DNA from: Pseudoalteromonas sp. N1230-9
Lineage (GTDB): Bacteria > Pseudomonadota > Gammaproteobacteria > Enterobacterales > Alteromonadaceae
Reading direction: 5' to 3'
DNA: 64,000 nt
Assembly (NCBI RefSeq): GCF_032716425.1
Contig: NZ_CP090420.1
Coordinates: forward strand, 372,001 to 436,000
The position numbers were made by a program, and so were the translations under genes. The notes beneath the pieces were generated by a model, which saw nothing but the letters and a program-made list of their open reading frames with translations, was not told where the DNA came from and did no database searches. Shown here piece after piece: positions 45,401 to 62,922 of the stretch (the first letter of the stretch is position 1; the number at the start of each line of letters is the position of its first letter).

Positions 45401-45665
45401 GATAATTCCTTACTAAAAATTAGCTAATACTAATTTAGTATAGTCAATGCTTGTTAATCTTCCATTAATCTAATAAATAAAATAATTAATTAAATCAATG
45501 GTATAGCTTTTTGTTAGTGTTTACCTAAGTTGTATATTTAAATTTTAAAGCCTGATAACCATAACAAAATTATTTTGAAGGATAAAAGATAGCTAGCTTG
45601 AGGTTTGTACTGTTAATAAACTAATATCCCATAAATTACGTTATGTTAAATTTAGTTAAATAATT

Positions 45666-57550: not shown

Positions 57551-57572
57551 TCATAAAAGAACACATCTTACC
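57551..57572 (-). promoter_or_regulatory. Ter-like site 1 (minus orientation)
   Basis: Core GTAAGATGTGTTCTT on the minus strand, preceded by G. One of three near-identical motifs just upstream of tus. Its G6-side end faces the origin, so it should block forks moving leftwards. Confidence 0.6.
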
Positions 57573-57665
57573 TTAAGCAAGCCATAGTGTAACCTCAGCT
57601 TTACATGTATAAAAAATCCTTTTTTAAGTCTACATTGATCAAATTAAAAAGTTGTACTATCAAAT

Positions 57666-57687
57666 ACACTAAAGAACACATCATACT
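57666..57687 (-). promoter_or_regulatory. Ter-like site 2 (minus orientation)
   Basis: Core AGTATGATGTGTTCTT on the minus strand. Its first ten bases match E. coli TerB AGTATGTTGT at nine positions, including the critical G at Ter position 6. Same orientation as site 1. Confidence 0.62.
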
Positions 57688-57772
57688 TTATTATATTCAA
57701 GTGTAAGGTCAGCAATAAGAAGAAATTAACTTTAAATAATCAAGTGATAAGGTTAGAATTGAATTAACTTTA

Positions 57773-57794
57773 AGTAAGATGTGTTCCTATGAGT
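57773..57794 (+). promoter_or_regulatory. Ter-like site 3 on the tus start codon
   Basis: Core AGTAAGATGTGTTCCT on the plus strand, opposite in orientation to sites 1 and 2. It covers the tus ribosome site and ATG (57789), so Tus bound here would also block its own expression, as TerB does for E. coli tus. Confidence 0.62.
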
Positions 57795-58664
57795 ACGAAG
57801 TTAGAAATACGCAGTCAGTTTGATTTAGTAAGTGAGTTAACTCATTTGTTTTGTGAAGAATTAAAGGAAGTGGGTTTTCATAAAGCATCATATTATCAAT
57901 TGCCAGATATCGATATAAACGACGAAAAGAAAGTCCCTTCTTCAATTAGTGTACAAAAAATTGAAGGCAATGATGCTCATAAGTTAATTCTAAATTCTTT
58001 TGGTGATTTTTATAAAAAGACTGGATTAAGCAGTCGAGTATTAAAAAGACATCCAGGTTTATTAGTTTTAAAAGATGTCGATAAGCAACATTTCATTGCA
58101 AGGATAAATCAGTTAAATAAAGCCAAAGCTGATTTTAAAAATAGTGTAATAGCTATCGATAATAATGATGCGCGATTTGAAGCGGTTCACAATGCTGTGC
58201 CTAATCTCATTACACTTTCTGCATATCGTAAAATCCATTTTGAAACTGAATCGCCCTACTCTGTTCGTTTTACTTGGATGCACAAACACGCAACTAAAAC
58301 GCTAACTAAAAAAATGGCCTTAGCAATGCTCGATAAATCGGCTAGTTATTCTAATCCAAGAATGATAGACCAACACTCTTGGCAAGCGCTAGTTGCACAA
58401 GAGCAAAGTCGTGTTGCAAGTTTAGGTGATAAAGAAAAATTACGAATTCGTAGACCAACAAGAGTTAGTCCACAAGTTAATGTAAGATATACAGCTCAAA
58501 ACCGATATCATGTTAGTGCTGCTTTACCTTTTATTTTGATAAACCCAGAACCAGATGTAAAACTGGGTACATTATCTGATTACCAAAAACCAGAAAGTCA
58601 TCCTCGAAAAAGGGAATATGATTTCTTAGTTGATAGACTTTACTTAGAACAAGTAACAGATTGA
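57789..58664 (+). CDS. tus: Replication terminus-binding protein (Tus homologue)
   Basis: A 291-residue protein alignable by eye with E. coli Tus (309 residues). Shared blocks: NAVPNLITLSAYRKI against HLPGLITLNAYRTL, KLRIRRPTRVSPQVNVRY against KLKIKRPVKVQPIARVWY, and the final VDRLYLEQV against IPRLHLYV. The fork-lock pocket is largely kept: Phe130, His134 and Leu140 correspond to E. coli F140, H144 and L150, while Gly149 is Asn139. Tus bound to Ter halts replication forks from one side. Convergent with rep, sharing a terminator, and preceded by three repeats that resemble Ter. It is much diverged, so site specificity will differ from E. coli. Confidence 0.88.
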   Translation: MSTKLEIRSQFDLVSELTHLFCEELKEVGFHKASYYQLPDIDINDEKKVPSSISVQKIEGNDAHKLILNSFGDFYKKTGLSSRVLKRHPGLLVLKDVDKQHFIARINQLNKAKADFKNSVIAIDNNDARFEAVHNAVPNLITLSAYRKIHFETESPYSVRFTWMHKHATKTLTKKMALAMLDKSASYSNPRMIDQHSWQALVAQEQSRVASLGDKEKLRIRRPTRVSPQVNVRYTAQNRYHVSAALPFILINPEPDVKLGTLSDYQKPESHPRKREYDFLVDRLYLEQVTD

Positions 58665-59937: not shown

Positions 59938-60210
59938 TGTTCTTATTTCCAATTTTTCTTCGACAGTTAATAACAACACATAAAACTTCAAAAGTTAAAT
60001 GTTTAAGTTAGTATAAACTTGATCCGATCATAATTAATTTCTTTGGATCAGTTTTATACTAACTGTTTCGTAATTGCTGATTTTCAGATCAGATTTTTAC
60101 TAAGTTATAGTTGATAGGTCGCGATTTTACTAACTCAGTTCAAATTATGTCCTGCTTATCACCTTTTTAAAGCAAATTAACACGACATAAATTGCTTTTT
60201 TAAAACAGCA

Positions 60211-60219
60211 TGTGGATAA
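60211..60219 (-). promoter_or_regulatory. DnaA box
   Basis: TTATCCACA on the minus strand, the perfect DnaA consensus, in the middle of the iteron region. Confidence 0.8.
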
Positions 60220-60381
60220 ACAGCCCTTTAGTTAGCATAGATCTGATCTGTACCAACTATAGATCAGATCCATACCAACTTATTGCGCATTTTAGTCATG
60301 CTCTCGGTGTATAACTTTATAATTTAGTTAGTAAAAAATTGATCTATACCACTATTTTTGTGAGTAAAGCAGTGACTAAAC

Positions 60382-60390
60382 TGTGTATAA
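60382..60390 (-). promoter_or_regulatory. DnaA box
   Basis: TTATACACA on the minus strand, matching TTATNCACA, between iterons. Confidence 0.65.
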
Positions 60391-60706
60391 GTCGAAAGCT
60401 CATCTTTTGCTTAGTAATTGGTTGATCTGCGAGTCATTAAAGATCTGATCTTTACCAAGTAAAAACACGATCTGGCTTTTTAGTAAATATTCAATGAAAT
60501 CAGCTATATATTTCACTATTTTAGCATCTTAATCTTATATACCTATATACTTAACCGATATTAAACTTACTTATTTATACTTAGCATTAGTAAAGTTACA
60601 AATTTTTATTAAATGTCTTATAAATAAAAGGTATGTCGCCTTAAATAGTTGTTTACAGCAATTTGAATGGACATTATACTTAAATCATAACTTTGAGGAA
60701 GAAAGT

Positions 60707-61945
60707 ATGTCTATCAATAATAATGCGCTAGCCACTTATAGGTTACTAAAAGCGACAGCAGAAGTTGCTGAAAAATCGCTAGAAGGACGTATTCAACATT
60801 ATCGTGCTCATCTTAAGTCTGAAGAAAAAGAACTTCGGACTTACACTCAAAAAGCAGCCGCAGATCTATTAGGCTGTAATAATCGTACGTTAAAAAGACG
60901 CCACGACAATGGTGATTTTGATGAACTTAATATCAAACGTGGAGCTAATGGTCACTATGCTTACACGTTAGTCAATATCTTTGCTATGGCTGACATCATG
61001 GATATTAAGCCTGATCACCGTACTGTAGATGACAAATTACAAGTTATTGTTATCAATTCATTAAAAGGTGGCTGTGGTAAAACAACTAGCATGGTGAATA
61101 TCGCTGCGGCACTTGCTACTACAAATATCAAGCGTTACCGAATTGGTATTATCGACCTCGATCCGCAAGGTTCTTCATCAAGTTTCTTTCCTCCTAGCGA
61201 GCCAGATCCGATCACTGTCGGTGACTTAATGCGTGATTGTATTGAACTTGAAGAAAACGAAACCTGGGATGAATTGGTTACTAATTCTTTTTTACCAACT
61301 CATATCCCAAATATTCGTATTTTGCCTTCTGGTATGGATGATTTTTACTTTGAGCATGAAACAGCAACTCTATTAAAAGATAGCTCTAGTTACGATAGAA
61401 CACGTCATTATCATAAGTTACTTGAGAAAGTCATTGAACCCGTGAAAGATCAATTTGATCTTATCTTAATAGATACCGCACCTTCCCTTAACTTTATGTT
61501 TTACAACGCGTTAATGGCCTCAACATCCATGCTTATCCCAGTTCATCCAGAAGCTGTAGATTTTGATGCAAATAATAAATACTTAAAACGATTGGGTGAG
61601 ATTTATCATACTGTTGCAGCACTAGGCCATCAAGGCTGGGATTTTATGCAATTCTTGGTAACTAATTATGTGAAAGGAAATCACTCGCAGCGTGACATTG
61701 TCAAAGATGTACGTAGTGCATTTGGTCGCCAAGTTATGAGCTATCCGATTAATCATAGCTCAGCTATTACTGCTAGTTCATCATCTTTTAATACTATTTT
61801 TGATCAAAAAACATCTGATAGCTTAGCTAGCCGAGAGTCACTACTTCGTGCTCAAGAAAATATCAAAGATGTCGTTGATGAACTAGAAATGTTGATTCGT
61901 TCTAATTGGCAATCAACCCAATCATCTCTCAATCCAGCTAAGTAA
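60707..61945 (+). CDS. parA: Partition ATPase ParA (type Ia)
   Basis: A 412-residue type Ia ParA. An N-terminal helix-turn-helix region (about 45-66: TQKAAADLLGCNNRTLKRRH) would bind the par promoter. The deviant Walker A KGGCGKTT is at 120-127, followed by IIDLDPQGSSSSF (Walker A') and LILIDTAPSLNF (Walker B). It moves replicon copies apart with ParB. A ribosome site GAGGAAGAAAG precedes the ATG; parB follows after 14 bp. Confidence 0.95.
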   Translation: MSINNNALATYRLLKATAEVAEKSLEGRIQHYRAHLKSEEKELRTYTQKAAADLLGCNNRTLKRRHDNGDFDELNIKRGANGHYAYTLVNIFAMADIMDIKPDHRTVDDKLQVIVINSLKGGCGKTTSMVNIAAALATTNIKRYRIGIIDLDPQGSSSSFFPPSEPDPITVGDLMRDCIELEENETWDELVTNSFLPTHIPNIRILPSGMDDFYFEHETATLLKDSSSYDRTRHYHKLLEKVIEPVKDQFDLILIDTAPSLNFMFYNALMASTSMLIPVHPEAVDFDANNKYLKRLGEIYHTVAALGHQGWDFMQFLVTNYVKGNHSQRDIVKDVRSAFGRQVMSYPINHSSAITASSSSFNTIFDQKTSDSLASRESLLRAQENIKDVVDELEMLIRSNWQSTQSSLNPAK

Positions 61946-61959
61946 GGTTAATAATAAAA

Positions 61960-62922
61960 ATGGCTAAAAAACGTAAGAATGATACCAGCTTAGATCCATT
62001 TTCAACGTCAATTGAAAGCAGTAGCTTAGATGCGTTACTGGAACAAGCAACAGCTGGAGATGTAGTGAGTATGCCTTCGCCTAGCGATCCTACTCGCTTA
62101 ATTACCTTAGTGTGTAAGGTTATCCCTAGCTCTGAAATTGAAGCTAAAACAAAGGTATATGGTAAAAACCGACGAGTACAATCATTATTAAATGAAAAAT
62201 CAGTCGCTGATATTCTTCCAGCGATTGCCGAAGACGGTCGTAATCAGCACCCTGCCCTATGTTGGGATAAAGGTGACGAAATGCTTGTTTTAGCCGGCTC
62301 TCGTCGTCGTAAAGCATGTATCTTAAGTAACTCTGATTACTTAGTTTTAAGCTCTAAAGATTTCACAGATCAAGATGCTAAAATACTTGCTGTATCATCT
62401 GATCAATATATTGCTCCAAGCCTATGGGAGCTTGGTCAAGCATATCAACAGACCCGTGATGAGCTTATTGCTGAAGGTAAAAAGGGCTCTTATCGTGAGA
62501 TTGCTGCGATTGAGGGAGTATCACACACAGCCATTGCTGATGCTATCAAAGCTTATGAGAACCTACCTTCAACGGTTTTAAGCCTTTACCCAACAGCAAA
62601 CCATGTTGGCCGTGAAGTAGCGAAAAAGCTTATAAGTGCCAAAGAGCGTGATGAACAATTGTTTACCAAACTAGTAAACGATGTCAGCAGAGATAGCGAA
62701 ATAGCGCAAATTAGTAGTGATGATAAACGTGCGTTAGCAATTACTAAGTTATTGACAGCCGAGCCTGCAGCGCCAAGCCGCCGTGAAGCGCTTATCGACA
62801 GTGAGTTTGTCAGCGTACAGCGTAACATTAAAAGCGGCGATTTATCTGTTAAAATCGATAATAAAGTGATGACAGACAAACGCTTAGAGCAGTTAACTAA
62901 GCTTTTAAATAGCTTTAATTAG
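61960..62922 (+). CDS. parB: Partition protein ParB
   Basis: A 320-residue ParB of the SopB/P1 type. Nuclease-like N-terminal motif GSRRRKA (near 112-118), DNA-binding helix-turn-helix around YREIAAIEGVSHTAIADAIK (about 178-197), and a C-terminal dimerisation strand (SVQRNIKSGDLSVKIDNK). Its stop codon (62920-62922) is immediately followed by an iteron. I did not locate parS with confidence. Confidence 0.93.
   Translation: MAKKRKNDTSLDPFSTSIESSSLDALLEQATAGDVVSMPSPSDPTRLITLVCKVIPSSEIEAKTKVYGKNRRVQSLLNEKSVADILPAIAEDGRNQHPALCWDKGDEMLVLAGSRRRKACILSNSDYLVLSSKDFTDQDAKILAVSSDQYIAPSLWELGQAYQQTRDELIAEGKKGSYREIAAIEGVSHTAIADAIKAYENLPSTVLSLYPTANHVGREVAKKLISAKERDEQLFTKLVNDVSRDSEIAQISSDDKRALAITKLLTAEPAAPSRREALIDSEFVSVQRNIKSGDLSVKIDNKVMTDKRLEQLTKLLNSFN

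Follow-up and report, generated by a model that had tools for sequence, protein, structure and literature searches.

The Tus-Ter fork trap is known from the chromosome of E. coli, for which six key Tus residues have been tabulated (E47, E49, F140, H144, G149, and R198; PMC10331603), and narrow two-site "type I" traps have been described in other Enterobacterales (PMC8707476). In plasmid R1, the sites terRL and terRR lie beside oriR; one blocks the short-way fork almost immediately, the other ends the long-way fork, and the pair is described as enforcing one-way replication (PMC10331603). In Pseudoalteromonas, one-way replication of most chromids and the position of tus beside ori2 are already published (PMC7858055, PMC6549158; for the position of tus also PMC8347550). 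Coverage was described as one-way in P. tunicata and seven other strains and two-way in three strains, tus as always lying on the chromid, and RepA with ori2 as the minimal replicon, by experiment, in two other species (PMC7858055). A one-way replication profile is also described for TAC125 (PMC13342612). With regard to Ter, the surroundings of the expected ter region on the P. tunicata chromid gave no match to the consensus of E. coli ter (PMC7858055), a ter in the tus promoter was called "tempting to speculate" (PMC6549158, PMC8347550), and the Pseudoalteromonas ter was listed as "only implicated," with a question mark (PMC10331603). We found no Ter sequence for the genus in the accessible parts of the open-licence literature, including PMC8707476, PMC12809603, PMC8496264, and PMC10002438, a body of text from which subscription papers are mostly absent; a term search of the accessible text of PMC12053903 returned no mention of tus or ter sites.

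The locus analyzed here lies in a 64,000-nucleotide stretch (the window; G000:C2:372001-436000) of an 899,511-base chromid, C2, in a Pseudoalteromonas-type genome whose main chromosome, C1, has 3,727,959 bases. It resembles the published Pseudoalteromonas chromids in having tus beside ori2, with RepA, parAB, a candidate dif2 near ori2 (as in most of them), and predicted one-way replication. Like the chromosomal system of E. coli, it has a Tus of the same protein family with the C6-pocket Phe and His, a Ter-like site before tus on the tus strand, and the rule that '-' sites lie to the left and '+' sites to the right of dif. Unlike in E. coli, tus lies on a different replicon from one of its putative traps, and a second trap adjoins an origin. 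Two ter-like sites by an origin recall R1. R1 depends on host Tus, whereas the replicon here, of about 0.9 Mb, encodes Tus itself and, in our reading, would lend it to the chromosome. We consider it highly probable that the locus belongs to a Tus-Ter fork trap whose Ter sequence is new (core GTAWGATGTGTTC) and whose single tus gene, on the chromid, serves the two replicons. Relative to the available parts of PMC7858055, what is added is the Ter sequence together with its polarity and its occurrence around dif1.

The tus locus and its Ter-like motif

The gene order around tus (ppsA, its regulator, DAHP synthase, tus, repA, ori2, parA, parB, helicase, and rmuC) essentially matches that of four annotated Pseudoalteromonas chromids, with one additional gene before tus in THAF3 (Table 1). 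The nearest named plasmid-collection record was P. shioyasakiensis NZ_CP077771, with a Tus 96% identical. At E 0.001, searches of Pfam, NCBIfam, and PHROG gave no family for RepA; in THAF3 and P. xiamenensis, the gene at the same place carries the annotation "replication protein A." The dif2 candidate lies 12 kb left of the Ter-like sites and is identical in sequence in three other genomes (G012, G022, and G025), 12 to 13 kb from tus. Its placing rests on these relatives, since a reversed control of the same looseness also gave 2 matches in the own genome and a stricter dif pattern had no match within the window.

Table 1. Features of the chromid locus (window coordinates) and of the main chromosome (C1 coordinates)
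Feature	Position	Strand	Remarks
dif2 candidate, ATAAATTACGTTATGTTAAAT	45631..45651 (C2:417631)	+	1 mismatch to degenerate dif core
Ter2 site 1, GTAAGATGTGTTCTT	57557..57571	-	exact match; predicted block to forks running leftwards from ori2
Ter2 site 2, GTATGATGTGTTCTT	57672..57686	-	exact match; predicted block to forks running leftwards from ori2
Ter2 site 3, GTAAGATGTGTTCCT	57774..57788	+	exact match; last base directly precedes tus ATG
tus, replication terminator protein, 291 aa	57789..58664	+	PF05472; PDB 1ecr
repA, chromid initiator, 404 aa	58723..59937	-	positional counterparts annotated; see PMC7858055
ori2 region	59938..60706		iteron-like repeats of GATCnGATC / TACCAA type (repeat search); similar repeats in G002
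parA2, partition ATPase	60707..61945	+	PF13614; TIGR03453 under its cut-off
parB2, partition protein	61960..62922	+	phrog_1146 ParB-like; NCBIfam ParB models under cut-off
Ter2-type site	C1:1794804-1794818	-	exact copy, intergenic, inward-facing
Ter2-type site	C1:1851984-1851998	+	exact copy, intergenic, inward-facing

The tus gene was the single match in its genome, leaving the main chromosome without one. Its product matched PF05472 at full length (residues 7-286; E 3.7e-87; 292.6 bits against a cut-off of 22) and the E. coli Tus structure PDB 1ecr at E 4.6e-27, while TIGR02648 and NF002810 of NCBIfam matched under their equivalog cut-offs. As an earlier reading from the sequence alone (the sequence-only reading) had claimed, the lock-pocket residues Phe140, His144, and Leu150 are retained; so are Glu49 and Arg198, and the positions of Glu47 and Gly149 are both Asn. 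We aligned the Tus proteins of 57 genus loci (57 of 59, with G014 and G043 left out). Phe140, His144, Leu150, and Arg232 were invariant, Glu49 was present in 55, Arg198 in 52, and Glu47 in 17, and the Gly149 position held N in 42, G in 9, and S in 6. Leu150 and Ile79 are presumably among the lock residues of E. coli Tus; the Ile79 column was variable and its alignment uncertain. Unlike E. coli Tus, which has Ala173, Gln250, and Gln252 at what we take to be DNA-reading positions, all 57 proteins have Met, His, and Ser there, and these are candidates for reading the altered 3' part of the site. An AlphaFold2 model of Tus was poor (mean pLDDT 53.7, from an alignment of 25 sequences of at least 75% identity). 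Elsewhere, tus homologues were found on 1,586 of 72,556 plasmid-collection records, 1,343 of them typed conjugative. Five genus genomes (G008, G013, G021, G030, and G055) carry a second, distant tus of 23 to 29% identity, and among these five loci a Ter2 site lies near the gene at G013 C10 only. This 98-kb contig (L271; second tus 27% identical) has one exact core site near that gene and two GTATGATGT half-sites around it, the three lying at 1704, 3818, and 4844.

Scanning the window, we found three exact copies of the motif GTAWGATGTGTTCYT upstream of tus, which we call Ter2 sites 1 to 3 and which confirm the places given for them and for tus in the sequence-only reading. The claimed likeness of site 2 to E. 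coli TerB also holds, with 9 of 10 bases agreeing between AAGTATGATG and AAGTATGTTG (TerB as read in MG1655), and the half-site GTATGnTGT is common to E. coli Ter and the Ter2 sites. The E. coli-type core GTTGTAAC is absent, with GATGTGTTC at that place; Ter2 goes on GTTC where E. coli has AACT. The same reading had given GTGTTC in place of TTGTAAC; a new Ter sequence is supported, but the extent of divergence was overstated, since Ter2 keeps the TGT found in the E. coli core (GTATGATGTgttc vs GTATGTTGTaact) and the divergence begins later. In the rest of the window, every further match at up to 3 mismatches had 3; the window total of 6 against a chance mean of 7.3 is at chance level, so the evidence lies in the exact copies and their clustering.

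Across its own genome, the motif had 5 exact copies, 0 with 1 mismatch, and 26 with 2 mismatches, and the reversed-motif control had 15 matches at up to 2 mismatches. All five exact copies are intergenic, three on the chromid and two on the main chromosome around dif1. The exact 15-mer occurred in 59 of 60 genus genomes, the own genome included, and the reversed pattern in 0 of 60; related species are not independent, and such counts are not to be taken as probabilities. Of 196 genomes from elsewhere in the order, 2 had the 15-mer and 49 had a tus-family match, so the motif is not a general tus-operator sequence. When no motif was presupposed, the commonest 12-mers in the 1.5 kb upstream of tus were the motif core, in 55 of 57 loci. 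From 2.6 kb before to 0.5 kb after tus, matches to GTATGATGTGTTC had a bimodal distribution, with 131 exact matches, 44 at one mismatch, 7 at two, and 40 at three, and inside the tus genes, which are shorter, there were only 7, all with three mismatches. Exact in these counts for the 57 loci refers to the core GTATGATGTGTTC, so that GTAAG sites count as one mismatch. The core is GTAWGATGTGTTC, followed by a variable tail; in three genomes that seemed to be without the usual upstream sites (G040, G011, and G053), these are present but end in TCA or TCG.

Site orientation on the chromid and around dif1

On the contigs that carry tus, 138 of 139 exact sites lay within 20 kb upstream of the gene, 115 of them opposite to the tus strand and 23 on the same strand, all of the latter 0 to 17 bp from its start. 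With the looser core, one or more opposite-strand sites were found upstream of tus in 55 of 57 loci, and several loci had 3 to 6 sites stacked against the leftward fork; in P. piscicida NZ_CP074588 there are six on the opposite strand, and a single '+' site directly follows the gene. In the seven loci closest to the window (L159-L165), site 1 has a counterpart at -227 to -230 relative to tus. Site 3 at the tus start, which the sequence-only reading had remarked on, is present here but is not general: a same-strand site stood at the start codon in 36 of 57 loci, just after the gene in 3, and nowhere near tus in 18, which indicates that stopping the long-way fork is not essential. As a separate observation, the 1.32-Mb chromid G017 C2 keeps its Ter sites at tus (151419) and has a dif2-like site at 1057939, about 410 kb from tus (1 mismatch, a weak match at a looseness at which the control also matches), a possible intermediate layout.

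Sites 1 to 3 face inward at 2 to 3 kb from the ori2 region, as the inward pair of a one-way R1-type replicon does. The sites, their conservation across the genus, their placing and orientation, and a broad fit with GC skew are seen in the sequence itself; we infer that Tus binds the sites and arrests forks there, and that the sites enforce one-way replication rather than merely accompany it. The two '-' sites would halt a fork running from ori2 in the direction of tus, the rightward fork would copy nearly the whole chromid, and site 3, the predicted stop for the fork arriving after a full circuit, would end it about 2 to 3 kb from its start. Site 3 is also a predicted tus operator that probably represses the gene; the analogy of TerB in E. 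coli makes such autoregulation plausible. The motif might instead act mainly in transcription, as an operator for Tus or another regulator, with no role in fork arrest. The same-strand copies at the tus start, placed as is TerB in E. coli, would suit such an operator, but most copies are on the opposite strand, as far as 12 kb away from tus, or flank dif1 on the other replicon in a sorted polarity, which an operator does not need, and the own genome has just five exact copies; we regard an operator without fork arrest as very improbable.

The fork-trap reading extends to the main chromosome. The sequence-only reading had described the motif beside the chromid origin, correctly as to the chromid sites, without foreseeing the two on C1, and it had held that random scatter over both replicons would count against it. 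Copies are indeed on both replicons, but they are placed and oriented rather than scattered. The two C1 sites are 57 kb apart in '-'...'+' order with dif1 between them (C1:1824913), and this trap orientation makes it very likely that one chromid-borne Tus serves both replicons. The pair would confine the meeting of forks to the region around dif1.

The same order recurred across the genus. Counting exact 15-mers and the dif matches of the first dif search only, 55 of 57 sites on 33 dif-bearing contigs without tus had '-' to the left and '+' to the right of dif, with sites on both sides in 22 of the 33; the two that did not are both on G013 C1, possibly part of a chromid. A further 29 non-tus contigs, without a dif match, carried 37 exact sites; eight of these contigs had two sites, and the order was '-' then '+' in 6 of them (G004 C17 and G027 C1 were otherwise). 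The exact sites include four of the five in G005. An enlarged, partly hand-picked count gave 78 of 80 sites on 44 contigs; it adds 16 hand-picked looser-core sites (19 entered, 3 of them on dif-less contigs), uses dif matches chosen by hand for seven contigs, and includes two contigs that we read as chromids (G002 C2 and G016 C124). It leaves out looser matches on G024 C5 and C30, G029 C14, G034 C18, G045 C91, G009 C15, and G039 C24, and the other matches with 1 or 2 mismatches of G047, G040, G011, G053, G002, and G016, most of which look like chance, the reversed control giving 8 to 20 per genome.

For comparison, we read three stretches of MG1655, which have a '-' site at 1341751 and '+' sites at 1609162 and 1684231, the last just before tus and on the same strand as tus. 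We take these to be TerA, TerC, and TerB, respectively, and the statement of the left-right rule for E. coli uses an assumed position of dif. Two considerations fix the polarity in Pseudoalteromonas: the GTATG end is shared, and sites of the opposite polarity would keep forks from reaching the dif1 region. Apart from orientation, we observed that one Ter site is at a near-constant 5.9 to 6.1 kb from dif1, on the same side, in 13 genomes (two of them with looser, hand-picked sites), while the distance of its partner varies, which suggests an old fixed site.

The sites flanking dif1 could conceivably be bound by a different, chromosome-encoded protein and merely resemble those of the chromid. 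The chromosome has termination needs of its own and no tus match, but chromid and chromosome sites have one and the same core, which is rare outside the genus, and a TCA tail is present at sites assigned to both replicons in 4 of 6 genomes (G040, G011, G053, and G047; up to 2 mismatches). We give a separate protein very little credence, and a single Tus for both traps remains the preferred reading.

Replication direction and the role of ori2

Outside the window, the chromid had positive GC skew in 17 of 18 sampled 20-kb stretches, with two near zero. Within the window, 5 of 16 4-kb bins were negative, four of them at 48 to 64 kb. This dip had raised the possibility of leftward copying between dif2 and ori2, which we set aside after splitting genes by strand: those left of Ter had the rightward third-position pattern in the window, in a small test of 6 genes, and in 4 of 5 relatives, with P. 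piscicida unclear. The interval in the relatives was taken by position (8.2 to 19.9 kb of each locus), and only P. shioyasakiensis and Bsw20308 have a dif-like core close to its left end. The parA and parB genes had a skew sign opposite to the rightward pattern, and the 20 kb right of ori2 had a weak pattern in P. shioyasakiensis and Bsw20308. On the main chromosome, the skew stayed positive or close to zero as far as 1842 kb, beyond which it was negative. At 20-kb resolution the sign change falls inside the trap (1795 to 1852 kb); since values were near zero already at 1760 kb, outside the trap, the place of the switch is known to tens of kb only. The skew fits a one-way chromid and a two-way main chromosome. 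Together with the counts of site orientation, it supports the fork-trap geometry, polarity, and one-way replicon that the sequence-only reading had proposed.

The strongest open rival places the one-way mode in the origin: ori2 could be intrinsically one-way, like the origins of R1-type theta plasmids, with the Ter sites serving only to give a clean end point or to guard against over-replication. Many theta plasmids start one-way. A natural contrast speaks against this alternative. The chromid of G002 (1,598,238 bases) has a RepA 85% identical to that of the window and an ori2 with similar repeats (59% identity over 749 aligned bases), while its Tus is only 45% identical. On that chromid, all 11 stretches up to 820 kb had positive skew and all 9 from 840 kb on had negative skew, a two-way pattern, although a single genome is concerned and skew records an evolutionary average rather than coverage. 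We found no Ter2 site at its tus locus (2.6 kb before to 0.5 kb after the gene) and no core site with 0 or 1 mismatch in the 100 kb around its dif1. Its sole genome-wide matches to GTRWGATGTGTTC were C2:737390 ('-') and C2:849851 ('+', with GTGTG), a pair that brackets the antipode of ori2 and a dif2 candidate at 819264 (one mismatch, a looseness at which the control also matches), and the skew switch falls inside the pair. Likewise, G016 (Tus 42% identical) has a site pair at C124:20177-118804 around a dif2-like site and none at tus. The layout of these two genomes fits the published two-way chromid lineage.

Apart from this contrast, 3 to 6 stacked sites exceed what would be expected if a leftward fork never formed, and the ter pair of R1 itself is said to enforce one-way replication in the accessible text of PMC10331603. 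We regard an intrinsically one-way ori2 as a serious possibility, a little short of an even chance. The broader proposal, on which our judgment is evenly balanced, is that the place of a few 13-bp Ter sites, not the origin, decides between one-way and two-way copying of a chromosome-sized replicon. RepA and ori2 would emit two forks, and Tus bound beside ori2 would kill one at once; a pair of sites at the antipode would yield a two-way chromid. The same Tus would police the terminus of the main chromosome, tying the two replicons together.

The Ter sequence had been a missing piece in this genus, as the failed search (PMC7858055) and the question mark (PMC10331603) attest. With the site in hand, a genus that has both one-way and two-way chromids, as described in PMC7858055, makes it testable whether the mode is set by the origin or by the terminator, and the control of chromosome termination by a chromid gene becomes testable as well. 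The putative pair would also provide a second, divergent Tus-Ter pair for studies of recognition.
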